Shown here: positions 25,291 to 56,652 of the stretch, piece by piece
How the letters are laid out: every line of letters begins with the position of its first letter
Numbering within the stretch: position 1 is the stretch's first letter
NCBI GenBank assembly: GCA_019925095.2
Contig: JAHHIN020000030.1
Span: 3,671,501 to 3,735,500 of the forward strand
From: Dendrolimus kikuchii
Taxonomy: Eukaryota; Arthropoda; Insecta; Lepidoptera; Lasiocampidae
DNA: 64,000 nucleotides
Direction: 5' to 3'
Program-made: the position numbers and the translations under genes
Notes under the pieces: generated by a model
Database searches by the model: none
The model's input: only the letters and a program-made list of their open reading frames with translations
Told to the model about the DNA's origin: nothing

Positions 25291-25319
25291 ATAAAGCCTC
25301 AACCTTTTTTTTTTTTTTT
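25291..25319 (-). repeat. R1-1 3' junction: poly(A) plus shared 14-mer
   Basis: On the minus strand there are 15 A followed by GGTTGAGGCTTTAT. The same 14-mer follows the tail of R1-1 to R1-6, and a variant follows that of R1-7. Left of it the DNA belongs to the Ty3/Gypsy remnant flank. Confidence 0.9.
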
Positions 25320-25406
25320 GATAACGCAGGGGGAATGTCTTTTCTTGTGACACTGCCTCGGGCCCGGGGGGGGGGTTGACCGAGGGTGTGTGAGACTCCC
25401 AGCGGC

Positions 25407-25454
25407 CGGAATCTCCACGCATGGCTACGAGAGCGTAGCAGTCGCGAGATTCCG
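25407..25454 (-). other. 3' UTR double stem of R1-1
   Basis: The minus strand pairs CGGAATCTC with GAGATTCCG and encloses an inner stem GCTACG/CGTAGC. The same fold recurs in R1-2 to R1-7 with altered stem bases, so it is probably recognised by the reverse transcriptase. Confidence 0.7.
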
Positions 25455-25665
25455 TCCGCCAGACTACCCACTAAACCTAACCTGCGCCCCTAATCCCTAG
25501 CGCTTTTATGGGGCGTCACAGGATATAGACCGTAGGTACACGACTGTGACGCCCCGACGCATGGCTTAACCCCAGGGTGGCCCTCGGGGAAGGCCACCCT
25601 CTTCAGCAATAGGGGGGGAAGTCCCGCGGGTGCCCCCGGACCCACGGGCCCCTATGATGGAATCC

Positions 25666-28600
25666 CTAGGGCAGGAGGAGACGGGCGTAGCGACCCCTGC
25701 GCCGGCCTATGCGCCGCCGGCGGATCGGGTCTGCCGCCGCGTCTTCCTCCCTCTCCCTTTCGGCGACCTCCTTCTGGAGCATTACCGCTTCGCAGAAGGA
25801 GGCCACTGCCGCCCAACGGTCCTCACTCCGCAGCATGGCAGTGACCATGCTTTGGAGTGAATCGACCGGTCCCGCCACGTTCTCCAACAGGTGGCGCTGA
25901 GGTCCCCAGGCAGCGCACTCCGTCAGCGTGTGGATCGCTGTGTCCTCGGGTGCGCCGCAGTGCTTACACTCCGGTGTCGGTTCACGCCCCGCAGTACGAT
26001 GCAGATACTTACCGAAGCAACCATGCCCGGTAAGTATCTGCACCATCCTGTATGTGAGGGTCCCTCTTTTTCGAGGGACCCAACGCGACAGGTGGGGACG
26101 GATCGCCTCCACCGTCGCGGCTCCAGCCACTGGGGACCTCAGGTCCTCCTCCCATTTCGCCATCAGGGCCGCGGTCGCCTCGGCCCTGACTTTCGCGACC
26201 TCTGCCAGGCACGGCCTCAAACCTCTCCCTCGGGCATCTTGGCGGAAGCGGAACACCCTGGCGAGCGTCTCCGCTTGGAGTTCCCACGGCGGATCACCCG
26301 CCAGGAGTGTCGCCGCCGTCCAAGACACCGTCCGGTACCCCCGAATGGCCCTCACCGCAAGGACGCGCTGACAGCGCCTCAGCAGCGTCCTGTTCTTGCG
26401 GTGAAGGGCGTGACTCCACACGGGGGCACCGTACAGTGCCATACTCCGTAAGATGCCCGAGTACAACCTCCTACAGGCCGCACCTGGCCCTCCCACATTC
26501 GGCAGGAGTCTGGCCAGGGCAGCGGCGGTCCTTAGGAGTCTCGGGGTCAACTGCTCGAAATGAGCCCCGAAACTCCACTTCCCATCCAAGATGAGGCCCA
26601 AATATTTCATTTGGGCCTCTACCGCCACTGCCACTCCCTGGACGACGACGTGCGTGTCCCGGGGTGGTCTCCTACGACGCCCGTGGAACATCAGGGCCTC
26701 AGTTTTCTCTACAGAGACTCTGAGGCCCAGACGCTGGATCCTTCCTACGACCAACGCGGAGGACGCGTTGGCCAGCTCCACGGACTCATCATACGTACCA
26801 CCCCGGGCCGTGATGAGGGTGTCATCCGCGTAACAGAACACCCCCATCCCGGGTAGGACTGGCTCTCGGAGGAGCCAGTCGTATCCGATGTTCCACAGGA
26901 TCGGGCCCAGAACCGATCCCTGTGGAACACCGCACACCACACGCCGACGCCCAGCGATCTGACCATAGCCGCCCCCCTCCTAGAGGACATATCTGTCCTG
27001 GAGGTATGCCTTCAACAACCTCATGAGGTACAGAGGCACTCCTTGATAGCGGAGTTCCTCCAGGATCGTCTCAAACGGGAGGCTGTTGAAGGCGTTCGCT
27101 ATATCTAGCGATACCACCAGGACAGACTCCTCCATCCCCTCTGCCTCTCTCTTGAGGCACCTTAACGCATCCAGGGCGTCCAACGTGGAGCGCCCTGGTC
27201 TAAACCCATATTGTGCCTCCGAGAGACCAGGCCCGTCGTTGTTGATGTGCTTGACGAGGCGACTGGCCAATATCTTCTCGAAGTTCTTGGCCACCTCGTC
27301 AAGCAGGACGATGGGCCTGTACGCAGAGGGGTCATCAGGGGGGAGGCCCTCCTTCGGGATCAGACACAGCCGGCCCTCCTTCCACTGCTTCGAGAACTCA
27401 CCTGTACTGATGCAGGCATCATATAGTCCCCGAAGCTGACCGCCGAGATGTTTGGCGGCCAGGAAGAGGGCCCGGCCTGGAACCCCGTCTGGTCCCGGTG
27501 CCGTCCTACGGCCCCGGAGGCGATCCAGGGCCGTTTCAAGTTCCTCTTCTGAGACGGGGGGAGGTGCCGTCTCAGAAGGAATAACCCCGGGAGGAGGATT
27601 CATCACGGGGGGAGTATGGGCTCCCGGATCCGGGAAGAGTCCGTCGACAATCCTTTCAAGGACCCCGTCCGGTAGGGACTCCGTAATCGGGGCGGCAAAG
27701 GCACGCAACTTTTTACGTGCCGCCCGATACGGACGTCCCCAGGGGTCCCTGTCCAACGACTCCAGAAGTTCTTCCCGGGCCCGGGCCTTCGCCTGGCAGA
27801 TTGCCACTTGAAGGGCCTTTTTGGCAACCCGATACTCCTCCCCTAGCCTGATCTCCTCCTCCAGCTCCGGAGGAAGCCGACGCCGGCAGCGCTTGAGAGA
27901 CCGGTGCAACCTTTGAGCTGCCTCTCGCAGGGCACCGATCTCCGCAGTCCACCAATGGACGCCTGGCCGCTGCCAGCGCCGACGCGACCGTGGCATGGAG
28001 GCATCGCAGACCCTTCCCAGAGATCTGCGCATGCGCTCCGCCAGTTCCTCCGGAGTTCCGCCATCCACCGGATTGGTCCAGCCCTCGACGACCGCCGTCT
28101 CCTCAGCCAGCTGGGGATCCAGCCGGCTGACGGCCCAACGCGGGAAGTGCCCGTGGCCACGTGGGGGGTCTGTCATCCTACTGGGAGGAGGGGAGACCTC
28201 GAACCTGATATACAGATGGTCCGAGAGCGTCTCCACCTCCTCCTCAACCGTCCAGTTCACCACCCTGCGTGCGATCGCATGGGTAGCGAATGATAAATCC
28301 ACGATGGATCCACCCCGCGATCGCACGCAGGTATGGACCGACCCTCGATTGAGGATCGACAGACCACTTTGTAACGCCCACGCATCCACGAGTCTTCCCC
28401 GTGCGTCGGTGACGGTGTTCCCCCAGGAACGGGATTTTGCGTTGAAGTCGCCAAGGACGAACGTCGCCCTCGACGACTGTCTCGCCACGGCGGCCCTGAC
28501 GGAATCCAAGAATGTCTCGAACTCCGCCAGGGACCGGTTCGGGGAGAAGTACACCCCAATGACAGTGTACTCTCCCCAACCCGCCGCCGCGTAACCCCGT

Positions 28601-28824
28601 CCCCTCTCGATGGAAGTGAGAGGGGGGCTAGTGCCTGACCTAGCAATCACCGCCACCAGGCCGTCGAGGTCCCCTACCCAGTTCTCCTGGGCGGGGATGT
28701 AGTACGGCTCACTTACTACCGCTGGACCAATCCCCCACTCCGCCATGGACTGCAGGAACAAGTCCTGAGCCCCGGCGGAGTGGTTTAAATTCCCCTGGAG
28801 GAATCTCGTATGCTGTACAGGCAT
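25666..28824 (-). pseudogene. R1-1 ORF2: endonuclease/reverse transcriptase, one stop
   Basis: A frame of 1052 codons with a single TAG at 26982-26980, at a position that is Trp in the other copies (before the EGGG block). It has an AP-type endonuclease with GDFNAKSRSWGN and TLSDHLYIRF, RT with GVPQGSVLGP and YADD, and a C-terminal CCHC (CKHCGAPEDTAIHTLTEC). The start ATG at 28824 shares its A with the ORF1 stop (TAATG). The stop falls before the YADD motif, so the protein would lack its catalytic centre. Confidence 0.9.
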
Positions 28825-31058
28825 TAATCAGACATACGAGATTCCCCCACGATTCTACCCTCTCTCGTCCCGAGCCTATTGGCCGGGGGGACAAATTTGG
28901 CGGGGACATTTCCAGGCTGGCAGCGCCTGGACATGGCCACGTGATCTGCCCTCCGTTCCTCTTCGGCGCAGATCACACAATGCGCCTTTTCCGCCCTACA
29001 TTCTGCCAACATGTGCCCGCTTTTGCCACAGCGGTAACACAAATTGGATTTGTCCCCCCGGCCGTCCGGACACGCCGCGGTCGAGTGCCCGGTGGCAAGA
29101 TACCTGAAGCACCGCAGCGGGCGATTCTCGTACGCCTCCACTGCGGCCGAAGTGAAGCCGAGCAACAAGTGACCGGCTTCAGCCACGCTCTTAGCCACCG
29201 GTATTGGGCACGTCACCCGCGACGAGCCCATACCTCCTGCACCTATTCCGATCCCCGCTGCCCGGACCTGGGAGCGGGGACAGTTCCCTACTCGGGCAAC
29301 CTCTTCCTCGATCATCTCTGGGGTGACCGAGTCGTCCAGACCCGTGAGCCGGATTTCCCCCCTTTTCACTGGCCTGGAGATCTCCGCCACCCCAGCGAGA
29401 GGCCCGCGGAGGAGCTCGGCGATCCGATCAGCCAACTGCACGTCCTCGGGGCCGGGCGGCAACTCCAGCAACCGAGAGTCGTTGGCGGACCGAAGGACCC
29501 TGAGGCCTCTCTTTAGCCCCAGGGCGACGATGTCGACGGAACCCCGGGCCTTCGCAAACACCTCTCTATAGGTGAGCCCCTTCCCCTCCGCCTCCGGTAG
29601 CAGCTTGAGCCGTACTACCGGAGTTTTCGCCTCCATCAGGCGGGAGGGGTTCACTTTCCCCGGGGGCCCGCGCCGAGCCTCTCTCCGTGAATCCCGTCGA
29701 TCCTCCCTTCTTTCCTCCCGTCGGGAGGTGCGGGGTTCGGTTGGGGGTTGGGTGGATTGGAGGGGGGCCGAAGGATTCGGTCCCCTGCCCGCTCCCTTCC
29801 CCTTTCCTTTCCCCTTGCCTTTCCTGCCCCCCTCCACCACGGTCCACTCATTATCCGTGGGGGGGGCACTAGACTCCACGGGGGGAGCAAATCCTTTTAT
29901 TTGGGACCTCGGAGTCTTCAACGAGGGAAACTCCTTGGTCCCAACCTTAGATGGCCCTGCCGCCCCCACCTTTTTGGGCGGAGGGCGTGATTGTCCTGGT
30001 GCTGGAGGTGGGAGTAGAGCCACCTCGTCGTCAGTCCGGGCATCCACCACCATCTCCCGCGCGGATACTGGCGGGGTGGGGGTGGGAGCAACTCTCAGAG
30101 GGGGGGGGGGGGGTTCGTCTCCCCCTTCTTTTTCTTGTCGCTCGCCAGCGGCGGGCGAAGGATCGTGTGAGGGGGCAGACGCTCCTCGATCGCCGCGAGA
30201 CGAGCGTCAAGGAGGGGCCCCACCGACGTCACGATGGCCCTCTGCAGGGTCTCCATATCCCAAGTGGGAGGGGGAGGTATATCCCGCGGGGCGGCAGCCT
30301 GGTCTCTCTTCTTGGCCGCTGCCTTCATTTCACTGTACTCCCTGCGGTGAGCCTTCAGCTCGGCCCGCAGGGAGTCGATTTCCCGTTTTAGCCGGAGGTT
30401 ATCGACGGACAACCTCCGGTTCTCAGCATCCAGGGACCTCGCGGACAGGTTTTCCACCACATCCGCGAGGGTCCCGGCAGCGGTCTTCAATTTTTTAATA
30501 TACCCCCCCCTTAAGGTTGCCCGAGGTTTGGGCAACCCTGTAGATGGCTGCCACGTGGCTCTTGGCCAACGTGAGCAGCTCTTCTGCTCCCATCCTCCCC
30601 AGGTCGGTCTCCCTGGGGTCGATCTCTCCCGAAGCCTCCACCACGTCGGAGGACTCATCTGACTTCTTCTTATAGGTTTCCCCTTTAGAAGAAGTCGAGG
30701 CCTCGATCGTCGCCACATTCCTCTCTACCTGCAGCTGGGCCTCCCGGATGAGAGCATCCGAACGAGCAACCAGCTCGTCGGAGGTCCCCCCCCGGGAGTA
30801 CCGCAGGACAGCCCCGCGTCCGCCACTTCGCGGTCCGGAGCGGCTCTTATACACCCTCCGGGCCGCAGCCACCATCCTTCTAGCTGACACGTCCGTGTCA
30901 GCTTCATCCTCCCCTGTCCCTTTATACCGGGACGACACGTCCGAATCGGGGTCAGATTCCCCCCCGCGCTGGGCACTGAGCCTCCTGCGGGCGGAAATCT
31001 TCCCCGCTAACACCCCCGAGATAGCCCCTTGAATGGCACTTGCGTCCGAGTCTGCCAT
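28824..31058 (-). pseudogene. R1-1 ORF1 (gag-like), two frameshifts
   Basis: It starts at MADSDASA (31058). It has a coiled-coil segment, then a Pro-rich linker, a WTVV/GKGKGK basic stretch, an RNA-binding-like core and three C-terminal CCHC-type knuckles (CFRYL..., CYRCGKSGHMLAEC, CVIC...C). The frame shifts at a C8 run near 30511 (C6 in R1-2 and R1-4) and again at a run of about 14 G near 30100 (about 7 in R1-2). The first knuckle reads CFRYL where other copies have CYRCL, losing one zinc ligand. It would package the LINE RNA. Confidence 0.85.
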
Positions 31059-31323
31059 CGTCTCGGGCCCCCCACAAGGGGGGGGGGCGCCCCCAGAGTC
31101 CAAATGGAAGCCGGGTCGACGAGCAGGCAGGAACCAAAACCAAGAAACAAGCCAAAGTCAATATACAAAGAAGTATCAAAAATCCGTTAAACAAAGCCAG
31201 GTGAGTAAACTAGTGCGAAATCCCGAAAAATCCTTTTAACAAGCCAAGTCGTATTAAAAGAATCCAAGAAAACCACATAGAACGTCACGAGAATAAATCC
31301 GAAAAAACCTGCCTTAGGGAACC

Positions 31324-31364
31324 AAAAGGTAAGTCGAATTACTCCACCACGTTCCGTGCCCGTT
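31324..31364 (-). repeat. Partial 5S-like monomer, type 1
   Basis: This is the last ~41 bp of a monomer (the region ending ACTTACCTTTT on the minus strand), joined to the R1-1 leader at 31323. Confidence 0.8.
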
Positions 31365-31673
31365 AAAAGGTAAGTCGAATTACTCCACCACGTTCCGTGC
31401 CCGTGCAATGAGTCTTCAACTCCTGGCATGGTTGTCCGGGCCCGGCCTTCCCGGGTAAGTTATATCAACTCGTGGACACGGAAAACGCCACGAATTGACT
31501 CCCTACGTCACTCCGGTTAAGGTAGTGCCGTGAACTCCCCAGTGCGCATCGTGGTACGGCTTTCCGTTGAAATGAATGTTTGCACACCCATCCAAGTACT
31601 GACCGCACCAAGCGACGCTTAACAATCATGATCGACTAGCTAATGCACGTTCCACTGTGCCAACTAGCCGCTC
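31365..31673 (-). repeat. 5S rRNA-like promoter monomer, type 1, unit 1
   Basis: A 309-bp unit read on the minus strand. The first 87 nt follow 5S rRNA: GAGCGGC at +1, GATCA at +41, TTAAGC at +52 and AGTACTTGGATGGG ending at +87. The rest is unrelated and contains a CCCGGGGAAGCCCGGG hairpin, and the unit ends TTTT. The 5S internal promoter boxes A and C are therefore in their normal places. It probably drives the LINE, or itself, by Pol III. Function is inferred. Confidence 0.85.
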
Positions 31674-31982
31674 AAAAGGTAAGTCGAATTACTCCACCAC
31701 GTTCCGTGCCCGTGCAATGAGGCTTCAACTCCTGGCACGGTTGTCCGGGCCCGGGCTTCCCCGGGTAAGTTATATCAACTCGTGGACACGGAAAACGCCA
31801 CGAATTGACTCCCTACGTCACTCCGGTTAAGGTAGTGCCGTGAACTCCCAGTGCGCATCGTGGTACGGCTTTCCGTTGAAATGAATGTTTGCACACCCAT
31901 CCAAGTACTGACCGCACCAAGCGACGCTTAACAATCATGATCGACTAGCTAATGCACGTTCCACTGTGCCAACTAGCCGCTC
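31674..31982 (-). repeat. 5S rRNA-like promoter monomer, type 1, unit 2
   Basis: A 309-bp unit nearly identical to unit 1. Its +1 (31982) lies directly next to the 14-mer junction of R1-2, so the 5S-like start equals the 5' end of R1-1. Confidence 0.85.
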
Positions 31983-32013
31983 ATAAAGCCTCAACCTTTT
32001 TTTTTTTTTTTTT
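31983..32013 (-). repeat. R1-2 3' junction: poly(A) plus shared 14-mer
   Basis: 17 A followed by GGTTGAGGCTTTAT on the minus strand, then the +1 of the R1-1 monomers. Confidence 0.9.
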
Positions 32014-32101
32014 GTTAACGCAGGGGGAATGTCTTTTCTTGCGACATTTCCTCGGGCCCGGGGGGGGGGGTGACCGAGGGGTATGTGGGACTCCCAGCGG
32101 C

Positions 32102-32150
32102 CGGAATCTCAACGCATAGCTACGATGATCGTAGCAGTCGCGAGATTCCG
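32102..32150 (-). other. 3' UTR double stem of R1-2
   Basis: Outer stem CGGAATCTC/GAGATTCCG, inner stem GCTACGAT/ATCGTAGC. The inner stem differs from R1-1 but still pairs. Confidence 0.7.
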
Positions 32151-32358
32151 TCCGTCGGACTACCCACTAAACCTACCTGCGCCCCTTCCCTCGCGCTTTT
32201 ACGGGGCGTCACAGGATATAGTCCATAGGCACACTACTGTGACGCCCCTACGCATGGCTAAACCCCAGGATGGCCCTCAGGGAAGGCCATCCTCTTCACC
32301 GATAGGGGGGGAAATCCCGCGGGTGCCCCCGGACCCGCGGGCCCCTATTGATGGATCC

Positions 32359-35300
32359 CTAGGGCGGGAGGAGATGGGCGTAGCGACCCCTGCGCCGGCC
32401 TGTGCGCCGCCGGCGAATCGGGTCTGCCGCCGCATCTTCCTCCCTCTCCCTTTCGGCGGCCTCCTTCTGGAGCATTACCGCTTCACAGAAGGAGGCCACT
32501 GCCGCCCAACAGTCCTTGCTCCGCAGCATGACGGCTACCATGCCTTGGAGCGAGTCGACTCGCCCAACCACGTTGGTCATCGAGTGACGCTGAGGTCCCC
32601 AGGCGGCGAACTCCACTAGCGTATGGACCGCCGTGTCCAATGGTGCGCCGCACTGCTTGCAGTCCGGTGAAGGCTCCCGTCCCGCAACACGATGCAGATA
32701 CTTACCGAAGCAGCCATGCCCGGTAAGTATCTGCACCGTCCTGTACGTTAGGGTCCCTCTATTTCGAGAGACCCAACGAGACAGGTGGGGGCGGACCGCC
32801 TCCACCGTCTCGACTCCAGCCACTGGGAACCTCAGGTCCTCTTCCCATTGCAGCATCAGGGCCGCGGTCGCCTCGACCCTGACCTGCTTAACTTCCACCA
32901 GGCACGGCCTTAGGCCTCTCTCCCGGGCATCCTTGCGGTATTGGTACACCCTGGCGAGCGTTTCCGCTTGGAGCTCCCAAGGCGGATCGCCCGCCAGGAG
33001 CGTAACCGCCGTCCAGGACACCGTACGGTATCCCCGAATGGCCCTCACCGCAAGGACGCGCTGACATTGCCGCAGCAGCGTCCTGTTCTTGCGGTGAAGG
33101 GCTTGACTCCACACGGGGGCACCGTACAGTGCCATGCTCCGCAGAATGCTCGAGTATAGCCTCCTACAAGCCGCGCCTGGTCCTCCCACATTCGGCAGAA
33201 GTCTGGCCAGGGCAGCGGTGGTCCTAATCAACTTCGGGGCCATCTGGGTGAAGTGGGCCCCGAAGTTCCACTTCCCGTCCAACGTGAGGCCCAGATACTT
33301 TATCTGGGCCTTGACCGCCACTGCCACTCCCCGGACGACGACGTGCGCGTCCCGGGGCGGTGGCCTACGACGCCCGTGGAACATCAGGGCCTCCGACTTT
33401 TCTGCGGAGACCCTGAGGCCAAGATGTTCTACCCTGCCAATGACCATAGCAACAGCGTCGTTGGCTAGCTCCACGGACTCCTCGTAGGTACCGCCCCGGG
33501 CCGTGATGAGGGTGTCATCTGCATAGCAGATCACCCCCATCCCGGGCAAGACTGGCTCTCTGAGGAGCCAGTCGTAACCGATGTTCCACAGGACCGGACC
33601 CAGAACCGATCCCTGTGGAACACCGCACGCGACACGTCGACGTCCGGCGATCTGACCAAAGCCGCCCCCCTCCCAGAAGACGAACCTGTCCCGGAGGTAT
33701 GCCTCCAACAGCCTCATGAGGTACCGAGGCACTCCCTGGTACCGGAGCGCCTCGATGATGGTCTCAAACGGGAGACTGTTGAAGGCATTCGCTATGTCGA
33801 GCGATACCACCAGGACAGACTCCTCGATCCCCTCTGCCTCTCTCGTGAGGCACTTCAACGCACTCAGGGCGTCCAGCGTGGAACGCCCTGCGCGGAACCC
33901 GAACTGTGCCTCAGAGAGGCCAGGCCCTTCGTCATTGAGGTGCTTGACGAGGCGACTTGCCAAAATCCTTTCGAAGACTTTGGCCACCTCGTCAAGCAAC
34001 ACGATGGGCCTGTAGGCAGAGGGATCTCCTGGGGGGCGGCCCTCCTTAGGGAGCAGGCACAGCCGGCCCTCTTTCCATGGCTTCGGGAACTCGCCCGACC
34101 TGATGCAGGCGTCGTACAGTCCCCGAAGCTGGCCGCCGAGATGTTTGGCGGCCAGGAAGAGGGCCCGGCCTGGGACCCCATCGGGTCCCGGTGCTTTCCG
34201 ACGGCCCCGTAAACGGTCCAGGGCCGTCTCGAGCTCCTCCTCTGAGACGGGGGGAGGTTCCGTCTCAGAGGCAATTATTCCTGGAGGAGGATCCATGGCA
34301 GGAGGAGTATGGACTCCCGGGTCTAGGAAGAGACCGCTAATGACCCTATCAAGGACCCCATCCGGCAGGGACTCCGTAATCGGGACAGCAAAAGCACGCA
34401 ACTTTTTCCGTGCTACCCGATACGGACGTCCCCAGGGGTCCCTGTCAAGCGATGCCAGTAATTCTTCCCGAGTCCGGGCCTTCGACTGGTTTATTGCCAG
34501 TTGAAGGGCTTTTTTAGCAGCCCGATACTCCTCCGCCAACCTAAGCTCCTCCTCCAACTCCGGAGGAAGCCGACGCCTGCAGCGCTTCAGAGATCGGTGT
34601 AGCCTTTGAGCTGCCTCTCGCAGGGCACCGATCTCCGAAGTCCACCAATAGACGCTTGGCCGCTGCACGCGTCGACGCGACCGTGGCATGGAGGCATCGC
34701 AGACCCTTCCTAGGGATCTGCGCATGCGCTCCGCCAGTTCCTCCGGAGTTCCACCATCCACCGGATTGGTCCAGCCCTCGACGACCGCCGCTTCCTCAGC
34801 CAGCTCGCGATCGAGCTGGCTGACGGCCCAACGCGGGAATTGCCCGAGGCTGCGTGGGGGGTCTGTCATCCTCGGAGGAGGGGAGACCTCGAACCTGATG
34901 TACAGGTGGTCCGAGAGGGTCTCCACCTCCTCCTCAACCTTCCAATTTGCCGCCCTACGTGCGATCGCATGAGTGGCGAATGACAAGTCCACGATGGATC
35001 CTCCCTGCGATCGCACGCAGGTGTGGACCGACCCTCGATTGAGGATTGACAGACCACTTTGCAATGCCCACGCATCCACGAGCCTACCCCGCGCGTCGGT
35101 GGCGGTGTTCCCCCAGGAACGGGATTTCGCGTTGAAGTCACCGAGGACGAACGTTGCCCTCGGTGACTGTCTCGCCACGGCGGCCCTGACGGAGTCCAAG
35201 AACGTCTCGAACTCCGCCAGGGATCGGTTTGGGGAGAAGTACACACCAATGATGGTGTACTCTCCCCAACCTGCCACCGCGTAACCCCGTCCCTTCTCGA

Positions 35301-35517
35301 TGGAAGTGAGAGGGGGGCTAGCGCCTGAACTAGTGACCACCGCCACCCGGCCGTCGAGGTCCCCTACCCAGTTATCCTGGGAGGGGATGTAGTACGGTTC
35401 CGAAACCACAGCTGGACCAATCCTCCACTCCGCCAGGGACTGCAGGAATAAATCCTGAGCCCCGGCGGAGTGATTCACGTTAGCCTGCAGGAATCTCACA
35501 TGCTGCTGTACAGACAT
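32359..35517 (-). CDS. R1-2 ORF2: endonuclease/reverse transcriptase, intact
   Basis: 1052 codons without a stop. Endonuclease: FLQANVNHSAG at the start, GDFNAKSRSWGN near 122, VDLSFATHAIAR near 170 and TLSDHLYIRFEV near 200. RT: APGPDGVPGRAL, AYRPIVLLDEV, VVSLDIANAFNSL, GVPQGSVLGP and YADD near 665. The C-terminal CCHC is CKQCGAPLDTAVHTLVEF, whose last ligand Cys is Phe here, a likely defect. The start ATG at 35517 overlaps the ORF1 stop as TGATG. Reading frames are otherwise the same as in R1-7. Confidence 0.9.
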   Translation of the reverse strand: MSVQQHVRFLQANVNHSAGAQDLFLQSLAEWRIGPAVVSEPYYIPSQDNWVGDLDGRVAVVTSSGASPPLTSIEKGRGYAVAGWGEYTIIGVYFSPNRSLAEFETFLDSVRAAVARQSPRATFVLGDFNAKSRSWGNTATDARGRLVDAWALQSGLSILNRGSVHTCVRSQGGSIVDLSFATHAIARRAANWKVEEEVETLSDHLYIRFEVSPPPRMTDPPRSLGQFPRWAVSQLDRELAEEAAVVEGWTNPVDGGTPEELAERMRRSLGRVCDASMPRSRRRVQRPSVYWWTSEIGALREAAQRLHRSLKRCRRRLPPELEEELRLAEEYRAAKKALQLAINQSKARTREELLASLDRDPWGRPYRVARKKLRAFAVPITESLPDGVLDRVISGLFLDPGVHTPPAMDPPPGIIASETEPPPVSEEELETALDRLRGRRKAPGPDGVPGRALFLAAKHLGGQLRGLYDACIRSGEFPKPWKEGRLCLLPKEGRPPGDPSAYRPIVLLDEVAKVFERILASRLVKHLNDEGPGLSEAQFGFRAGRSTLDALSALKCLTREAEGIEESVLVVSLDIANAFNSLPFETIIEALRYQGVPRYLMRLLEAYLRDRFVFWEGGGFGQIAGRRRVACGVPQGSVLGPVLWNIGYDWLLREPVLPGMGVICYADDTLITARGGTYEESVELANDAVAMVIGRVEHLGLRVSAEKSEALMFHGRRRPPPRDAHVVVRGVAVAVKAQIKYLGLTLDGKWNFGAHFTQMAPKLIRTTAALARLLPNVGGPGAACRRLYSSILRSMALYGAPVWSQALHRKNRTLLRQCQRVLAVRAIRGYRTVSWTAVTLLAGDPPWELQAETLARVYQYRKDARERGLRPCLVEVKQVRVEATAALMLQWEEDLRFPVAGVETVEAVRPHLSRWVSRNRGTLTYRTVQILTGHGCFGKYLHRVAGREPSPDCKQCGAPLDTAVHTLVEFAAWGPQRHSMTNVVGRVDSLQGMVAVMLRSKDCWAAVASFCEAVMLQKEAAEREREEDAAADPIRRRRTGRRRGRYAHLLPP

Positions 35518-37753
35518 CAATCAGACATGTGAGATTCCCCGGCACTTGCTCTAACCAAACCCCCGGGCCTTACCGGGGGGACAAACTTGGGGCGCACGGT
35601 GCCAGGCTGGCAGTGCCTGGACATCGTGACGTGGTCAGCCCGTCGCCCCGCTTCGGCGCACACCACGCAGTGCGCCTTGTCCGACTTGCACTCTATCAGA
35701 ATGTGGCCGCTTTTGCCACACCGATAACACAGGTCGGACCTGTCCCCCCGGCCGTCTGGGTACATCGCAGTCGAGTGCACAGGGGCGAGACACCTGTAGC
35801 ACCTCACTTGGCGCTTCTCATAGGCCTCCACGGTGACCGATGTGAAACCTATGAGAAGGTGACCAATTTCCGCCAGGTGTTTCGCCACTGGGATCGGGCA
35901 CATCACCCACGATGAACCCAGACCCCCCGCTCCAATTCCGATGCCCGCCGCTCTGATTTGGGAGCGTGGGCAGTTCCCTATACGGGCCACTTCCTCTACG
36001 ATCATCTCCGGGGTGACTGAGTCATCCAAACCCGTAAGCCCTAATTCGCCCCTTTTCACGGGTCTGGAGACCTCAGCCACTCCGGTTAACGCCCCCTGAA
36101 GAAGACCGGCCACCCGGTCCGCCAAAGCCGCGCTCTCGGCGCCGGGGGGAAATTCCAGAAGCCGAGAGTCGTTGGCGGACCGGACGACCCTTAACCCCCG
36201 CTTAAGCCCTAGGGCGACGAAGTCCACGACGCCCTTTGCCTTGGTAAAGACGTCGAAGAACGTCGTCCCCTTTTTCACGGCCTCCGGTAGTAGACTAACC
36301 CTTACTACCGGAGCCTTTTCCTCGGTGAGCTTCGCCGGGTTAATTTTCCCCGGCGGCCCACGGCGTCTATCCCGTCGAGGTTCCCGTTCCTCCCTTTGAC
36401 GGGGAGTGCGCGGCTGGGTTTGGGGTTGGGCGGACTGGAGGGGGGCCGAAGAGTTCGGTCCCCTGTCCACTCCCTTCCCCTTACCCTTCCCTTTACGCCT
36501 ACCCTCCACCACGGTCCACTCGTTATCCGTGGGGGGGGGGCACTTTCAACAGGGGCGGAGAACCCCTGGATCTGGGACCTTTGAGCCCTCAGTGAGGGAA
36601 ACTCCTTATTCCCAGATCCCGAGGGGCCCGCAGACCCCACCTTCTTGGGCGGCGGGCGTGACGGCCCGGCCTTCGGAGGAGGGGGGGGAGCTGTCTCCAC
36701 CCTCTCTTCGACCACCATCACCTCCGTGGGGACGGGGGCGGATACGATTCCCGAGGGGGGGTTGGAACCCCCTTTCTTCTTCTTATCGCCCGCTAGCGGC
36801 GGGCGGACGACCTTCGGAGGAGGAAGTCGGTCCTCCAGCACCGCTAGCCGGGCATCCACCAATGTCCCCACCGAGACGATGATAGCCCTCTGAAAGGCCT
36901 CAAGATCTAGGGTGGGGGGGGTTTCCAGGGGGGCGACAGCCGAGGGGGCAGCTTTCGCTGCCGTCTTCATTTCGCTGAACTCCCTGCGGTGAGCTTTGAG
37001 CTCAGCCCGCAGGGAGTCGATCTCCCTCTTCAACCGGAGGTTTTCCACACTCAACCTCCGGTTTTCTGCATCCAAAGACCTCGCGGAGAGGTTTTCCACC
37101 ACGTCCGCGAGGGTGCTTGCCGCCAGTTTCAGCTTCCTGATGAAGCCCCCCTTAAGGTTGCCCGAGGTCTGAGCCACCCTGTAGATGGCCGCTACATGAT
37201 CCTTGGCCAGGGTATGGAGCTCCTCAGCACCCATCCTGGCCAGATCTGACTCCATCGGGTCAACCTCTGCCACGTCGGAGGAGTCTTCCGACCTCTTTTT
37301 GTGGTAGGTCTCCCCCCCCTCCTTACGGGCTTTTTCCCCCCCCGCTTTGCGGGTCTTCTCCATCACCTCCAAAGAGGCCCTTTCAACCCTCACCTGGCAA
37401 GGATGACAACCGCGGAGCTGACGGCTTCGCTCAATTTCGTCACAAAGAGCCTCCGAACGAGCCATCAGCTCCCCTGTGGTCTCCTTCCTCGGGTACCGCA
37501 GCACCGCCGCCCCGCGACCAGCACTACGTGTCGCAATGCGGGCTTTGCCCCGTTTTATCACGGACCTGACAACTGACGTGTCAGTGTCAGCATCCGTCTC
37601 CCCAGGCCCACTTGCCCTCTTTCGGGACGACTCATCGGAGTCGGGGTCAGACCCCGCCCGCGAGTGGGCGCTGAGCCTCTTGCGGGCGGAGATCTTCCCC
37701 GCGATAACCCCGGTGACCGCCCCGGAAATGGCGCTGGCATCCGAATCCGCCAT
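35517..37753 (-). pseudogene. R1-2 ORF1 (gag-like), one frameshift
   Basis: It starts at MADSDASAISG (37753). It has a coiled coil (LAASTLADVVENLSARSLD and onward), a Pro-rich linker, a basic GKGKGKG stretch, the conserved core and three CCHC knuckles (CYRCLAPVHSTAMY, CYRCGKSGHILIEC, CVVC...C). The first knuckle ends in Tyr instead of Cys. The frame shifts at a run of about ten G near 36530-36540, where R1-4 has TGGTGGGGG. It ends with TGA shared with the ORF2 start. Confidence 0.85.
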
Positions 37754-38055
37754 TGCCACGGGCCCCCCACTAGGGGGGGGGCACCCCCAGAGTCCAATAA
37801 ACTAGCCGGGTCAATATTCCACGAAGAAACAGTCCAGATAACAAGCCAAGGTCAATATTAAAAGAAGAAACAAAATCCACGAAAAGCCAGGTCAAAAAAC
37901 TAGTCCGAAATCCAAAAATCCCTTAAACACGCCAAGTCGTCGATAAGAGATCCGAAAATAACCAAAAAACACGAAAAAGAAAACCACGAAAAAATTCGAC
38001 AAGGATCCCCCTGCATGGACACGTCCGCTCCCTGCGACTGCTGGGAGCATACTCC

Positions 38056-38088
38056 ATAAAGCCTCAACCTTTTTTTTTTTTTTTTTTG
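38056..38088 (-). repeat. R1-3 3' junction: poly(A) plus shared 14-mer
   Basis: 19 A followed by GGTTGAGGCTTTAT on the minus strand, then the unusual 5' cap of R1-2. Confidence 0.9.
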
Positions 38089-38177
38089 ATAACGCAGGGG
38101 GAATGTCTTTTCTTGCGACACTCCCTCGGGCCCTGGGGGAGGGTGACCGAGGGGAGTGTGGGACTCCCAGCGGAATG

Positions 38178-38226
38178 GATCTCCACGCATAACTACCGCC
38201 GAGGGCGGTAGTAGTCGCGAGATCCC
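38178..38226 (-). other. 3' UTR double stem of R1-3
   Basis: Outer stem GGATCTC-type paired with GAGATCC, inner stem CTACCGCC/GGCGGTAG. It is the same fold as in family alpha with different pairs. Confidence 0.7.
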
Positions 38227-38432
38227 GTCCGCCGGACTACCCACTAAACCTAACCTGCGCCTCTTTCCCACGCTTTTACGGGGCGCCACGAGAACTAGAG
38301 CGGTGCTACTACATTCGTGACGCCCCTACGTTTGGCAATCTTCAGGACACCCCGAAGGCAAGGTGCCCTGCTTCATCAACAGGGGGGGAAGTCCGTGGGT
38401 ACCCCCGGTCCCCGCGGCCCCCTGTGACGGCA

Positions 38433-41400
38433 CTAAGGGAGGTGGGCTGCGTAGCGACGCCGCCGGCCGCCAGTCCGCCGTCGCCGGATCGGGTCTGCGT
38501 ACGCATCCACCTCCCTGGTCCTCTCCGCGGCCTCCTTCAGGGACATTACCGTCTCGCTGAAGGAGGAAACCGCTCTCCATCCGTCCTCGCTCGACAGCAT
38601 GGCTTCTACCAACTGCTGGAGCGAGGACACAGGACCGACAATACTATCTAGCTGATGACGCTGAGGTCCCCAGGCGGCGCACTTGACCAGCGTGTGATAC
38701 GCTGTATCGTTGGGTGCGCCGCACTCTGCACATTCTGGCGTCGGTTCACGCCCCGCTGTCTGATGCAGATACTTACCGAAGCACCCGTGCTCGGTAAGTA
38801 TCTGCGTCAGCCTGTACGTTAGGGTCCCGTACTTCCTCGAGACCCAACGAGACAGGTGGGGGAGGACCGCCGCCACCGTCTCTGCTCCTGCTTCTGGGGT
38901 CCTCAGGTCATCAGCCCAATCTTGGATCAGGGCCTCGGTCGCCAAGACCCTGATCCTTCTCACAACTGCCGGACACGGTCTCTCTCCTCTCTCTCTGGTG
39001 TCCTGTCGGTAGCGGTGCACTGCCTCGAGCACCTCCGCCTGGCGTTCCCAGGGCGGATCACTCGCGAGCAGTGTCGCCGCCGTCCACGACACTGTCCGGT
39101 ACCCCCGGATGGCCCGCACCGCCAGGACCCTCTGAGAACGTCTCAGATGGGTCCTGTTCTTGCGGTGAAGAGCATCGACCCATACGGGGGCGCCGTACAG
39201 CGCCATGCTCCGCAGGACACCAGTATATAACTTTCTACAGACCGTGCCCGGCCCTCCCACATTGGGTAAGAGTCTGGCCAGGGCGGCAGCGGCACCTAGC
39301 AATCTCGGGGCCAGCTGGGTGAAGTGGGCCCCGAAATTCCACTTTCCGTCTAGGACAAGGCCCAGGTACTTCATCTGGGCCTTTACCGCTACCGCCACTC
39401 CCTGGACGGCGACGTGCGTGCCCCGAGGCGGTTGTCTACGTCGTCCGTGGAACATGAGGGCCTCCATCTTCTCTGCGGAGACCCTCAAGCCTAAACGGCG
39501 TACCCTTTCTAGAACCAACGCCGTTGCGGCGTTGGCTAGTTCCACGGACTCCTCGTAGGTTCCGCCGCGGGCCGTGATGAGGGTGTCGTCGGCATAACAG
39601 ATCACCCCCATCCCGGGCAGGACTGGCTCGCGGAGGAGCCAGTCGTAACCAATATTCCACAGGATCGGACCCAGCACCGAACCCTGTGGAACACCGCACA
39701 CGACACGTCGCCTACCAGAGATCTGACCAAAACCGCCCTCCCAGAGGATATGTCTGTCTTGGAGGTACGCCTCCAACAGTCTGACAAGGTACAGAGGCAC
39801 TCCATGAGACCGGAGTGCCTCTAGAATCGTTTCGAAAGGTAGACTGTTGAAGGCATTTTGGATATCCAAAGATACCACCAAGACAGACTCCTCTATGCTC
39901 TCCGCCTCTCTCGTGAGGCTCCTTAACGCGAACAGGGCGTCCAGGGTTGAACGCCCCGCCCTGAAACCATACTGAGCCTCCGAGAGTCCAGGCCCGTCGG
40001 AATCCAGGTGCTGGACGAGGCGGCTCGCCAAGATCTTCTCGAACACTTTTGCCACCTCGTCCAACAGCACGATGGGCCTGTAGGCGGAGGGATCATCGGG
40101 AGGGCGGCCCTCTTTCGGGATGAGGCACAGCCGGCCCTCTTTCCACTGCTTCGGGAACTCACCTGTCCTGATGCAGGCGTCAAAGAGTTCCCGAAGCTGG
40201 CCGCCTAGATGTTTGGCGGCCAGGAAGAGGACCCGGCCTGGGACCCCGTCCGGTCCCGGTGCCGTTTTCCGGCCCCGGAGTCTATCCAGGGCCATTTCTA
40301 TTTCTTCCTCGGAGACTGGGGGAGGATCAGTCTCCGAGGGTACAATCCGAGGAGGACACATCCTAGGAGGAGCAAAGGCTCCCGGGTCCGGGAAGAGTCC
40401 ATCTATAATCCTGTTCAGGACCCCGTCTGGCAGGGACTCCGTAACCGGGGTGGAGCAGGCGCGCATTTTCTTGCGCGCCACCCGGTACGGACGTCCCCAG
40501 GGGTCCGCATCCAACGTGGATAGGATTTCTTCCCGAGCCCGGGTCTTCGCCTGACAAATGGCCACCTGAAGAGCCTTCTTGGCAACCCTATACTCCTCCA
40601 AGCGATGTTCCTCCTCACCTCTGTCCGGAGGATGCCGACGCCGGCAGTTCTTCAGAGATCGGCGAGCCCAAAGGGCTGCCTCCCTCAGACTCCCGATCTC
40701 CGCGGTCCACCAGTAAACCGCTGGTTTCTGCCGACGTCGACGCGACCGTGGCATCGAGGCATCGCAGACCCTCGTAAGGGTTCTGCGCATGCCCTCCGCC
40801 AGATCCTTCGGACAGGTGTTTCTCTCTCGGTTGGTCCAGCTCGAGGTCGAGCCGGCTGATGGCCCATCGAGGGAACTGGCCGTGGCTACGTGGGGGGTTT
40901 GACCCTATCACATTAGGAGGAGGGGAGACTTCAAACCTTATATAGAGGTGGTCTGACAGAGTCTCCACCTCCTCCTCGACTTTCCAATTCATCACCCTGC
41001 GTGCGATCGCATGGGTGGCAAACGACAAATCTACTACGGAGCCACCCCGCGCTCGCACGCAGGTGTGGACCGAACCTCGGTTCAAAAGGGTCAAACCACT
41101 TTGAAATGCCCACGTTTCCACAGCCAGTCCCCTCAATTCGGTGACAGTGTTTCCCCAGGAGCGAGATTTGGCGTTGAAGTCGCCGAGTACGAACGTCGCC
41201 CTCGGCGACTGTCTGCCCACGGCGGCCCTGACAGAATCCAAGAAACGCTCGAATTCTGCCAGGGGTCGGTTGGGGGAAAAGTACACACCTATGAAGGTGT
41301 GCTCCCCCCACCCTGCCACCGCGTAACCCCGCCCCCGCTCGATCTCGATGAGCGGGGTGCCAGCGCCCGAACTGGCCACCACTGCCACCGTGTCGTCCAG

Positions 41401-41556
41401 GTCCTCAACCCAGTTGCTCTGGGCGGGGACGTAGTACGGCTCCGATATTACGGCCAGACCAACCTCCCACTCCGCCATGGACTGCAGGAGTAAATTCCGG
41501 GCCCCAGCGGAGTGGTTTACGTTTCCTTGCAGGAGTCTAGTATGTCGTCCGGGCAT
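38433..41556 (-). pseudogene. R1-3 ORF2: endonuclease/reverse transcriptase, 29-bp deletion
   Basis: It begins MPGRHTRLLQGNVNHSAG at 41556. The endonuclease motifs are intact (GDFNAKSRSWGN, TLSDHLYIRFEV). Near 40840 a 29-bp segment present in R1-6 and R1-7 is missing, between two CCAG words, which shifts the frame. The rest of the protein continues in another frame from about 40830 to 38433, with YADD and CAECGAPNDTAYHTLVKC, whose last zinc ligand is followed normally. The start lies 1 nt after the ORF1 stop (TAATATG). This copy cannot make a full enzyme. Confidence 0.9.
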
Positions 41557-41557
41557 A

Positions 41558-43741
41558 TTAGTGGGACATACTAGACTCCTGCTGGTTTCTTGCTATCCCG
41601 ACGTTCGCCGGGGGGACAAACTTGCCTCTCACATGCGGAGGGAGGCAGCCCCTCGACAGTGAGACGTGGTTTGCGTCGAGACCCGACTCGGCGCAAACCA
41701 CGCAGTGAGCGTTAGGCTCCGCGCATTGGGCGACCCTGTGTCCGCTTTTGCCGCAGCGGAAACACAGGGCCGACCTGTCTACTCGCCCGTCTGGGCACAT
41801 TACTGTGATGTGGCCCGTGTAGAGGCACCGCATACAGCGTATGGGTCGCCTCTCACGGGCCGAGACCTCCGCTGAGCTGAAGCCCACGCAAATGTGCTTC
41901 AGCTCAGTTAACATTTTCGCGACCGGGATGGGGCATTGGACGTAAGCAGCGCCCATCCCCCCCGGTCCCACACCGATACCGCCAGATTTGACGTGCTCGC
42001 GAGGGCAGTTCCCCGCGCGAGCGATGGCCTCCTCTAACAACCAAGGCGTGACGGAGTCGTCAAGCCCTGTGACACGGATGTCTCCTTTCTTCACAGGCCT
42101 GGCGACCTCGGCCACGCCTGTCAACACTGCGCTGAGGGCCAAAGCCAACCGGTCGGCCTTCTCGATGCCCTCCGGCCCTGGTGGCAGCTCCAAGAGCCGG
42201 GCATCGTTGGCCGTCCGGTTGATCTTAAGGCCCTCCTTGAGGCCCATCGCTTGCAGGTCCACTACCTTCGCGGCCTGCTCAAAAACCTGGCGGTATGTCA
42301 CCCCGTTCCTAGCGGCCTCGGGCAGCAGCGTCACCATTACTGCTGCTGCCTTGGCCTCCACTAGCGGGGCCGGCTTCCTCGGAGGAGGTTTCCTCACCGG
42401 CGCGTAACTCTGCGGGGGGGCGGAGTATTGAGGTGCGGGGGTCAGGGCAGGGTATCCCCCTGCTCTTCTTGCGCCCCGTCCTCTCCCTCTGCCCCTCCTA
42501 CCACCTCCCACCACTGTCCACTCACCCTGGTCCTCCTGGGTGGGGTAGGGGGCAATCGACCACATTGGGGGGGCCGGAGCCACCCCCTGTTTCCTGGGGG
42601 CCCTCTGGACGCCAGAGGGGCCCGGTTTCGACGGCGGGCGCGGAGGGCCCACCACTTTTGCATACGACGGGGGAGCGGGGGTCGCCACCGTCGGGATTGT
42701 CTCACACTCCATCGCCAGGGGCTCCGTCAGATCGTCGGAGACCCTGGGAGGAGCAGCCGTGGGCGGCGTGGCACCCGAGGTCCCGGGTGCCGCCTTGTTC
42801 CTTTTATCCGCCGCAAGCGGCGGACGGATGACCGGGGGGGGGAGTAGGCGGTCCTCAAGGCCCGCGAAGCGGGCGTTGATGAACTCCCCCATCGACAAGA
42901 TTATGGAGCGTTTCAGCTCCTCCACGTCGAATGGGGGAGATTCGGTGGTGGAACTCCCCCCTTTTTTCTGGGGCGGGGGCCCTCCATCGCTAGCCGCGGC
43001 CTCCTTGGCCGCAGCTTCCCTGGCCGCGGCCTCCTTGGTCGCGGCTTTCCCTTTGGCGGTGGCCTCCTTGGCCGCCGCCTTGTCCTTGGCCGCGGACTCC
43101 TTGGCCGCGGTCTTCATTTCCTCGAACTCCCTACGGTATGACCGAATCTCGGCCCGTAGGGAGTCCACCTCTCTCTTGAGCTTCAGATTGTCGAGGCTCA
43201 GTTTCCTTGTTTCAGCGTCGACGGTCCTCTTGGAGAGACTCTCGGTCACCTCCATGAGGGCCGCCGCCGCCTCCTTCAGTTTCTTGATATAACCCCCTTT
43301 GAGGTTCCCCGAGGTCTGGGCAACGTTGTAGATCGCTGCCACATGGACGCCGGCCATGGTGCGGAGCTCCTCCGCATCCAAAAGGTCGACGTCCGTGACC
43401 CTCGGGTCCATCTCGGGGGGTATATCCTTTCCTGAAGGCGCAGGGGCCTTTGTCTTCTTCTTAGCGTTCTGGCGGAGGTCGCTGACAAAGGCCTCTGCCT
43501 GAGCCTCGACATCTGCAGTCTCTTCGCGGGACAGCGTCGTCCCGACGCTTACTCCGCGGTGACGGGCCCCCAGGAGCACCTTGGCGCGCCGGGTCCCTGG
43601 CCTCTGGGTGTCCTCCTGGGTCACCAGCTTTCTACCCGACTCGTCCGAGTCGGATTCAGCATTCTCTCCGCGGGAGTGTGCGTTAGTCCGTTTCCGGACG
43701 TCGCACACTCCCGAGGCGCGACTCTGTGCCGAGTCGGCCAT
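41558..43741 (-). CDS. R1-3 ORF1 (gag-like), intact
   Basis: 727 codons from MADSAQSRASG (43741). In order: a charged N-terminus, a coiled coil near residues 150-215, an Ala/Lys repeat (AAAKEAA type), a Pro-rich linker, EWTVVGGGRRGRGRGRG near 425, a conserved RNA-binding-like core, and three CCHC knuckles at the C-terminus (CMRCLYTGHITVMC, CFRCGKSGHRVAQC, CVVCAESGLDANHVSLSRGC). It would coat LINE RNA. The ATG at 43741 is chosen because R1-7 starts at the equivalent place; upstream codons in frame lack ATG. Confidence 0.88.
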   Translation of the reverse strand: MADSAQSRASGVCDVRKRTNAHSRGENAESDSDESGRKLVTQEDTQRPGTRRAKVLLGARHRGVSVGTTLSREETADVEAQAEAFVSDLRQNAKKKTKAPAPSGKDIPPEMDPRVTDVDLLDAEELRTMAGVHVAAIYNVAQTSGNLKGGYIKKLKEAAAALMEVTESLSKRTVDAETRKLSLDNLKLKREVDSLRAEIRSYRREFEEMKTAAKESAAKDKAAAKEATAKGKAATKEAAAREAAAKEAAASDGGPPPQKKGGSSTTESPPFDVEELKRSIILSMGEFINARFAGLEDRLLPPPVIRPPLAADKRNKAAPGTSGATPPTAAPPRVSDDLTEPLAMECETIPTVATPAPPSYAKVVGPPRPPSKPGPSGVQRAPRKQGVAPAPPMWSIAPYPTQEDQGEWTVVGGGRRGRGRGRGARRAGGYPALTPAPQYSAPPQSYAPVRKPPPRKPAPLVEAKAAAVMVTLLPEAARNGVTYRQVFEQAAKVVDLQAMGLKEGLKINRTANDARLLELPPGPEGIEKADRLALALSAVLTGVAEVARPVKKGDIRVTGLDDSVTPWLLEEAIARAGNCPREHVKSGGIGVGPGGMGAAYVQCPIPVAKMLTELKHICVGFSSAEVSARERRPIRCMRCLYTGHITVMCPDGRVDRSALCFRCGKSGHRVAQCAEPNAHCVVCAESGLDANHVSLSRGCLPPHVRGKFVPPANVGIARNQQESSMSH

Positions 43742-44001
43742 TAGAAGAGGGCCCCCCCCATGGGGATGGAGAGGGGAGGTCCAAAACGAGCAACAAATCC
43801 AATCACGCAAGCAGAATCAAAATCCAGTGGGAAAAAGCCAAGTAATCAGTCAAAGAAGAAATCAAACCAAAACATACAAATCCGGGTCAACAGGTAGGCA
43901 AGAATGTCAGAAATCCGATAAACTAGCCAAGTCGTTAACAGTAATCATCAAAAACACCATCCAGAATACTTTCCTAAAAATGTTCAAAATGTTGTTCCCC
44001 G

Positions 44002-44029
44002 ATAAAGCCTCAACCTTTTTTTTTTTTTT
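44002..44029 (-). repeat. R1-4 3' junction: poly(A) plus shared 14-mer
   Basis: 14 A followed by GGTTGAGGCTTTAT, then C and the truncated monomer tail of R1-3. Confidence 0.9.
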
Positions 44030-44115
44030 GATAACGCAGGGGGAATGTCTTTTCTTGTGACACTACCTCGGGCCCGGGGGGGGGTTGACCGAGGGTGTGT
44101 GAGACTCCCAGCGGC

Positions 44116-44162
44116 CGGAATCTCCACGCATGGCTACGAGAGCGTAGCAGTCGCGAGATTCC
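44116..44162 (-). other. 3' UTR double stem of R1-4
   Basis: Same bases as R1-1: outer stem CGGAATCTC/GAGATTCCG, inner stem GCTACG/CGTAGC. Confidence 0.7.
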
Positions 44163-44373
44163 GTCCGCCAGACTACCCACTAAACCTAACCTGCGCCCCT
44201 CTTCCTCGCGCTTTTATGGGGCGTCACAGGATACAGCCCGTAGGTACACAACTGTGACGCCCCGACGCATGGCTTAACCACAGGATGGCCCTCGGGGAAG
44301 GCCACCCTCTTCACCAGTAGGGGGGGAAGTCCCGCGGGTGCCCCCGGACCCGCGGGCCCCTACGATGGAATCC

Positions 44374-47300: not shown

Positions 47301-47378
47301 CGACTGCAGGAACAAGTCGTGAGCCCCGGCGGAGTGGTTCAGATTCCCTTGGAGGAATCTCGCATGCTGTACAGGCAT
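44374..47378 (-). pseudogene. R1-4 ORF2, endonuclease deletion and late stop
   Basis: It starts at MPVQHARFLQGNLNHSAG (47378, TAATG with ORF1). Near 47100 about 150 bp are missing relative to R1-2, taking out the middle of the endonuclease, including the GDFN motif, and shifting the frame. The remaining frame keeps the RT with YADD and the C-terminal CCHC (CKQCGAPLDTAVHTLVEC). A TAG at 44523-44521 replaces a Trp about 50 codons before the family end at 44374. Confidence 0.88.
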
Positions 47379-49558: not shown

Positions 49559-49802
49559 CACGGGCCCCCCACTAGGGGGGGGGGCACCCCCAGAGTCCAG
49601 TAAGCTAGCCGAGTCAATATTCCGGCAAGCAACAGTCCGGTAAACACGCCAAAGTCGAAATTATAAAAAGAAACAAAATCCGAGAAAAGCCAGGTGAAGT
49701 CACTAGTGCAAGTTCCAAAATCCGTTAAGCAAGCCAAGTTGTTGATGAACGATCCCAGAACAGCACCTATAACCACGAAATAGAACCCTCGAAAAAACTC
49801 CT

Positions 49803-50130
49803 AAAAGGTAAGTCGAATTCTAAAGGGTTAGTCGAATTACTCCACCACGTTCCGTGTCCGTGCAATGAATCTTCAACTCCTGGCACGGTTGTCCGGGCCC
49901 GGGCTTCCCCGGGTAAGTTATATCAACTCATGGACACGGAAAACGCCACGAATTGACTCCCTACGTCACTCCGGTTAAGGTAGTGCCGTTGACTCCCAGT
50001 GCGCATCGTGGTACGGCTTTCCGTTGAATGAAATGTTTGCACACCCATCCAAGTACTGACCGCACCAAGTGACGCTTAACAATCATGATCGACTAGCTAA
50101 TGCACGTTCCACTGTGCCAACTAGCCACTC
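49803..50130 (-). repeat. 5S rRNA-like promoter monomer, type 1, in R1-4
   Basis: One unit with +1 at 50130 (GAGTGGC), GATCA 40 nt on, TTAAGC and AGTACTTGGATGGG at the same spacing as in R1-1, and TTTT at its end. The end carries a short duplication of the tail (ggtaagtcgaatt, then ggttagtcgaatt). Confidence 0.85.
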
Positions 50131-50133
50131 AAG

Positions 50134-50166
50134 ATAAAGCCTCAACCTTTTTTTTTTTTTTTTTTT
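50134..50166 (-). repeat. R1-5 3' junction: poly(A) plus shared 14-mer
   Basis: 19 A followed by GGTTGAGGCTTTAT, then CTT and the +1 of the R1-4 monomer. Confidence 0.9.
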
Positions 50167-50254
50167 GATAACGCAGGGGGAATGTCTTTTCTTGCGACAC
50201 TCCCTCGGGCCCTGGGGGAGGGTGACCGAGGGGAGTGTGGGACTCCCAGCGCAA

Positions 50255-56564: not shown

Positions 56565-56652
56565 GATAACGCAGGGGGAATGTCTTTTCTTGCGACACTC
56601 CCTCGGCCCCTGGGGGAGGGTAACCGAGGGGAGTGTGGGACTCCCAGCGGAA

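Follow-up and report, generated by a model that had tools for sequence, protein, structure and literature searches.

Serial 5S-derived units at the 5' ends of SART-like LINEs in Dendrolimus kikuchii, probably SINE RNAs appended by template jumping

The window, that is, the whole 64-kb stretch of Dendrolimus kikuchii DNA analyzed here (64,000 nucleotides of contig JAHHIN020000030.1), contains between 25.3 and 62.5 kb a head-to-tail run of seven LINEs, named A to G, all on the minus strand. The LINEs and the 5S-like units associated with them are arranged as follows.

25305..31323, minus strand: body of LINE A, with 5' UTR, ORF1, ORF2, 3' UTR and poly(A)
31324..31364, minus strand: 41-nt 3'-terminal unit fragment ending CCTTTT, between the array and LINE A
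31365..31673, minus strand: type-1 unit, second copy, 309 bp
31674..31982, minus strand: type-1 5S-like unit, upstream copy, 309 nt, from +1 GAGCGGC to CCTTTT
31983..31996, minus strand: target-site copy GGTTGAGGCTTTAT, between the poly(A) of LINE B and the array of LINE A
31997..38055, minus strand: LINE B, without units, beginning GGAGTATGC after the target-site copy
38070..44001, minus strand: LINE C, without a full unit, with a stub of about 11 nt near its start that by eye resembles the 3' end of type 2
44016..49802, minus strand: body of LINE D
49803..49821, minus strand: 19-nt 3'-terminal unit fragment, preceding the body of LINE D
49822..50130, minus strand: type-1 unit of LINE D
50148..51371, minus strand: element E, a 5'-truncated LINE (ORF2 interior to poly(A)), joined directly to two type-2 units
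51372..51638, minus strand: type-2 unit, second copy
51642..51908, minus strand: type-2 5S-like unit, weak match to RF00001
51926..56527, minus strand: LINE F, 5'-truncated in ORF1, without units
56545..62502, minus strand: LINE G, without a full unit

Full units are carried by three of the seven LINEs (A, D and E) and are lacking on B, C, F and G; among the near full-length elements, A and D have them and B, C and G do not. The original prediction, which was made from the sequence of the window, had placed 5S-like units on the minus strand at these positions, and they were found there. The 2.1 units that it gave to LINE A (its R1-1) correspond to the two 309-bp copies and the 41-nt 3' piece, and the single unit that it gave to LINE D (its R1-4) lies at 49822-50130 with a 19-nt 3' piece at 49803-49821. 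At element E (its R1-5) the two units of a second type are likewise present at 51372-51908, but the LINE is not a full one, and the units adjoin the interior of ORF2 at a junction about 1.2 kb from the LINE 3' end. The two type-1 units of LINE A are 98% alike, and the two type-2 units of element E, a type about 270 bp in length, are identical to each other. The types have two blocks in common, the 5S head and a 3' block, and differ in the middle; type 1 also contains an internal TTTT. The unit 3' end is ACTTACCTTTT or ACAACATTT(T), which by eye is unlike the 3' end of the LINEs in the window, the only LINEs compared. In six of the seven LINEs the poly(A) is followed by the 14-mer GGTTGAGGCTTTAT, and in G by the variant GGTTAGGTTGAGGCTTA; we read this 14-mer as a duplicated target site that would have been re-used again and again. 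Several other interior arrays each have a private junction sequence, as if re-using their own target duplication.

Both unit types are more similar to 5S rRNA than expected by chance, as judged by local alignment with a Drosophila 5S sequence, which served as the yardstick. Type 1 scored 41 and type 2 scored 68, as against a mean of 17.2 and maxima of 32 (type 1) and 39 (type 2) in 1000 dinucleotide-preserving shuffles per type. Alignment to the covariance model RF00001, as had been suggested, supported type 2 weakly and type 1 not at all. The family was absent from an Rfam search of the whole 64-kb window with E up to 1; in a short-stretch search it matched type 2 over the full family length below the gathering threshold (16.7 bits against a gathering score of 38, with E 0.76 across all families) and did not match type 1. 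When the RF00001 consensus was scanned along the window as plain sequence, the highest score fell on type 2, and type 1 scored 22, with the 99th percentile at 21 and many other places as high. For the 5S link, Rfam was counted as weaker evidence than the shuffle test. What remains of the proposed likeness to a 5S gene is a diverged 5S head, clearest around box A, IE and box C, and not an intact 5S gene. Searches of viral contigs and genome contigs revealed no relatives, and a stretch of 5S sequence used as a literature query returned nothing.

The LINEs themselves resemble the telomeric elements of the R1 clade. Pfam EN and RVT_1 domains were identified in ORF2, which is 46-48% identical to bee proteins named R1DM-like, and five copies outside the window (L009, L010, L012, L022 and L025) have two long stop-free frames, of 672-769 codons in the place of ORF1 and 1051-1053 codons in the place of ORF2. 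On the 5' side of L009, L012, L015, L023 and L025 a repeat ending GGTT precedes the element, and on the 3' side of L009, L012 and L015 the poly(A) is followed by a GGTTAGG or GGTTGGG repeat, the sense strand being the G-rich strand. Full copies near contig ends are thus inserted in TTAGG between T and A with their sense on the G-rich strand; interior copies occupy other sites, often GGTT-like. SART1Bm is described as an R1-clade element with an EN and RT ORF2 and poly(A), inserted in TTAGG between T and A (PMC7265360). The elements here share the R1-type EN/RT ORF2, the poly(A), the TTAGG site between T and A and the sense orientation on the TTAGG strand with that description (PMC7265360). The TT/AGG insertion is the site and orientation of SART, and we therefore refer to the LINEs as SART-like, a likeness by description. 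Unlike SART1Bm, again compared by description only, they have tandem 5S-like 5' units, of which the SART1Bm description available to us contains none (PMC7265360).

Units also occur near several contig ends. Among eleven contig ends examined, the right ends of C1 and C12 consist of TTAGG/TTGGG repeats; of the other nine, three have another kind of short repeat, two have N and four have ordinary DNA. The contig ends at L050, L051 and L057 are CCTGG/CCAGG short repeats, not TTAGG. Long TTGGG runs lie beside TTAGG at L009, L010, L015 and L025, adjoining LINEs near chromosome ends; such runs are unusual for a moth.

A genome-wide survey of the assembly (705,495,508 bases) gave at least 68 matches to the type-1 query, with 40 of 177 first-look candidates scored, and at least 106 matches to the type-2 query, with 38 of 202 scored; both counts favour well-kept copies. 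The 68 type-1 matches were grouped into 39 places outside the window, all of which were fetched (20 long, 19 short). For type 2, 101 of the 106 matches, excluding five short partial ones, were grouped into 38 arrays, of which the ten single-unit ones were examined with their flanks, together with the window and L017. A LINE body was found by BLAST within 300 nt downstream in 44 of the 55 arrays examined. The association of 5S-derived units with the 5' ends of R1-clade LINEs therefore recurs in the genome, as had been proposed, and the examined copies do not lie mostly away from these LINEs. Among the 11 arrays without a BLAST LINE, two (L034 and L065) look by eye as if they precede a LINE, the first array of L013 is interrupted by an insertion, five (L040-L044) are copies of one solo event and L046 is a solo unit, which leaves L062 and an array without a LINE (L014). 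Second LINE bodies in the fetched loci have units at L016 and L017 and none at L011, L019, L024, L025 and L027.

The 5' ends of the units are fixed and their 3' ends are variable. In 59 of 62 cases the following unit starts at the same base (+1, GAGCGGC), and the arrays themselves start at +1 in 20 of 25 cases and in 17 of 19 in further loci. Among the junctions between two full type-1 units (n=54), the T run is T3 in 10, T4 in 35, T5 in 8 and T6 in 1, and extra bases (up to 11), mostly A or oligo-A, are present at 17 of the 54. Type-2 units are 94-100%, mostly 99-100%, identical to the query (101 near-full matches), with 59 of the 106 matches scored equal to it over all 268 bases, and their start-to-start spacings are 253-278 nt (n=63). 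Between the array and the LINE, 3'-terminal unit pieces of 12-40 nt occur in 6 of 21 type-1 arrays and a 7-nt piece only, which may be chance, in a further 3 of 21; L023 has a 69-nt unit piece. Two arrays, those of element E and L019, are joined to ORF2 interiors. In L033 a type-1 unit ends in T4 followed by A20 and is joined to a C-type LINE body, and the A20 after the T run may be taken as a sign of adenylated SINE RNA. Solo insertions were also observed: the unit of L046 is flanked by a 15-bp target duplication, GATCCGGGCTAGTGT, and the event shared by L040-L044, a lone unit together with a short 3' piece, is flanked by a duplication of 14-16 bp, for which the matching empty site is the window around 25266-25294.

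Fixed 5' ends, oligo-U-like or A-extended 3' ends and end-to-end joins are expected if template jumps follow one another on small RNAs made by Pol III. From these sequence features, the units most likely represent a 5S-derived SINE that template jumping has added serially to SART-like LINEs. A template-jump chimera should have the full 5' end of the second RNA and a joint at the RNA 3' end, where extra bases may or may not be present, and a 5S-derived SINE should have a 5S-like head with an internal control region and should occur as solo insertions with target duplication; all of these features were found. Observations that count against the model include the internal TTTT of type 1, at which Pol III could terminate prematurely, the array without a LINE at L014, the pairing of unit type with LINE subfamily, the clustering of like subtypes within arrays and the junction nearly common to L017 and L026.

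Although tandem 5' repeats look like promoters, these are more likely to be passengers. The original prediction had proposed that the LINE lineage captured a 5S-type promoter and multiplied it; the 5S derivation and the position at the 5' ends of R1-clade LINEs have stood, but promoter capture and multiplication are disfavoured by the junctions, the identities, the truncated LINEs, the solo copies and 3' ends like those of separate RNAs. Under that proposal the units would be inherited 5' UTR promoter monomers, each able to start transcription as in mouse L1. It would account for arrays at LINE 5' ends that mostly start at the 5S-like +1 and for a unit type that tracks the LINE subfamily, and a 5S-type promoter, being internal, would survive retrotransposition. 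L017 and L026 also have a junction nearly common to both. Inheritance is nevertheless not what near-identical LINEs display, since their arrays and junctions differ. Over about 2.95 kb the LINE bodies at L010, L015 and L022 show 99.3-99.7% identity to one another, yet they have three different junctions and differing arrays. Among 35 pairs at least 96% identical downstream of the array, 21 were scored as different and 14 as same, 10 of the latter being L040-L044 among themselves; among the LINE-bearing pairs 21 of 25 differ in junction, a count that is not of independent pairs because they share members; the remaining 4 were scored as same under a lenient rule. Inheritance may apply to some junctions, such as those of L017/L026 and of these 4 pairs.

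Unit identity, in addition, does not track LINE identity: type-1 units are.982 identical within loci and.975 between loci (66 full units), and the 5' UTR and ORF1 of many LINE bodies are 69-80% identical to those of LINE A. Arrays also occur on 5'-truncated LINEs and as solo insertions. Runs of T5 or longer, of which there are 3-5 in each of A, B, C, D and G (the five LINEs counted), mostly in the 5' UTR, and which include one or more T6 runs in four of the five, argue against Pol III making a 6-kb LINE RNA, as Pol III is not expected to read through them. Finally, (GG)AGTATGC is where three unit-free B-type LINEs begin, and two with units (L013 and L045) are joined at GAGTATGC, at most 2 nt from these unit-free starts; this common start supports a LINE RNA start outside the units. 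Inherited promoter monomers are, on this evidence, an unlikely explanation.

The junctions led us to set aside three further explanations. The first, tandem duplication or unequal exchange after insertion, starting from one captured unit, is favoured by the five units of one signature in L009 and by units of one array sharing a subtype more often than by chance (.336 vs.217, p.008; in adjacent pairs.277 vs.216, p.17), and some arrays may include duplication; as a general origin of the arrays it is very improbable, because more than one signature is present in 16 of the 17 loci that hold at least two complete type-1 units (in the entries for L016 and the window, two arrays are merged) and junction bases vary within arrays. 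Equally improbable is that SINEs inserted one after another, each independently, where the 5' end of a resident LINE meets its flank: target duplications do flank solo units, but by eye no target duplication separates neighbouring units, full type-1 junctions have only 0-11 extra bases, and the units meet the LINE at many points, ORF2 interiors included. That the units are a host satellite serving as the insertion target of the LINE is scarcely credible, even though they are tandem, conserved and near several contig ends, since at the 3' ends examined the LINE poly(A) is followed by a TTAGG/TTGGG-type repeat or a private junction sequence and by no unit, with the exception of L020, where a truncated unit directly follows the A run.

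Under the template-jump model, a stand-alone 5S-derived SINE RNA of about 309 nt (type 1) or 270 nt (type 2) would start at GAGCGGC and end in an oligo-U terminator, as for a Pol III transcript, and its production by Pol III is probable. A SART-like telomeric LINE would insert by target-primed reverse transcription, and the reverse transcriptase, once at or close to the 5' end of an intact or broken LINE RNA, would jump to the 3' end of a SINE RNA, copy it to +1 and often jump again. The predicted product is telomere repeat, SINE(n), LINE, poly(A) and telomere repeat. We infer from the junctions that the LINE reverse transcriptase performs these jumps; for the Bombyx R2 enzyme, template jumping has been described as requiring non-templated addition (PMC8857657). 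Arrays would mostly be built afresh at each insertion, with a SINE type matched to the LINE subfamily.

This matching is evident in the arrays with a LINE. Type 1 was found 33 times with A/B/D LINEs and once with C/G LINEs (L033, the sole cross-pairing seen), and type 2 was found 0 times with A/B/D and 10 times with C/G (Fisher p 4e-9, which is optimistic because copies are related); the 11 of 55 arrays without a BLAST LINE are left out of the table. Such pairing indicates that jumping would not be random among RNAs, and suggests a heritable or recognition link. Either the LINE proteins may distinguish the types, or the RNAs and the LINE may share one place of origin; the near-identity of type-2 units across chromosomes appears easier to reconcile with a small pool of sources than with RNAs produced in cis. 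We lean somewhat towards the further view that the SINE spreads mainly as a favoured acceptor for template jumps of telomeric LINEs, with types matched to subfamilies, and not through priming by a 3' tail of its own; a limited set of source RNAs would then supply the units for a new array whenever a LINE inserts.

Several known systems resemble parts of this arrangement. Lepidopteran 5S-derived SINEs have been described as HaSE3, PxSE4, PxSE5 and other SINE3 elements (PMC3272025, PMC8010984, PMC10886601). As far as those descriptions extend, the units share with them a 5S-like head with box A, IE and C, an occurrence in moths and butterflies and solo copies with target duplications, and differ from HaSE3 and PxSE5, which have a LINE-like 3' tail, in their oligo-T end and in copies that lie mostly before LINEs and are often serial. 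A Dictyostelium 5S retropseudogene reportedly arose by LINE template jumping, according to the title of work by Szafranski in 2004; by that title, 5S RNA was joined to a LINE by the mechanism proposed here, in a single retropseudogene, whereas the units here are serial, recurrent and dedicated. In mammalian U6/L1 and L1-RNA chimeras a small RNA at the 5' side is joined to a LINE 3' end during reverse transcription, which is the arrangement seen, and the joining stage proposed, here; we know of no U6/L1 chimeras in which a single SINE forms serial arrays and is paired with a particular LINE subfamily, as occurs here. The 5' monomers of mouse L1 are likewise tandem, variable in number and located upstream of the LINE ORFs, but they are an inherited promoter, and most junctions here differ between near-identical copies. 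Serial SINE arrays at LINE 5' ends were not found in the open-access literature, as surveyed by titles and the beginnings of abstracts.

Most work on R2-type template jumping has been done in vitro, and chimeras of an RNA and a LINE that arise in nature are as a rule isolated events. One genome here provides dozens of joints with RNA-end signatures, many of them on near-identical LINEs, which allow direct counts of jump positions and non-templated bases, of the acceptors chosen and of their specificity for LINE subfamilies. If true, the acceptor role would be a new route of SINE spread. The arrays add a SINE layer to retrotransposon-bearing telomeres, and they also illustrate that tandem 5' repeats of LINEs can be mistaken for promoter monomers.

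Other features were observed in the window. Matches to the Rfam family mir-3389, which we take to be a silkworm family, occur below the gathering threshold on the plus strand at 26875, 33568, 39639, 45583, 53496 and 58116, in six of the LINE copies, where they lie antisense to ORF2 at a distance of about 1.58 kb from the LINE 3' end, and this family may be a fragment of such LINEs. At 2530-2602 on the plus strand, a CPEB3/HDV-like ribozyme match above gathering lies just 5' of ORFs with EN/RT domains at 2633-5695, possibly as the self-cleaving 5' end of a LINE. An errantivirus-like LTR element occupies 13279-20242 on the minus strand and encodes RT, integrase and, in a further ORF, a Baculo_F-like envelope.
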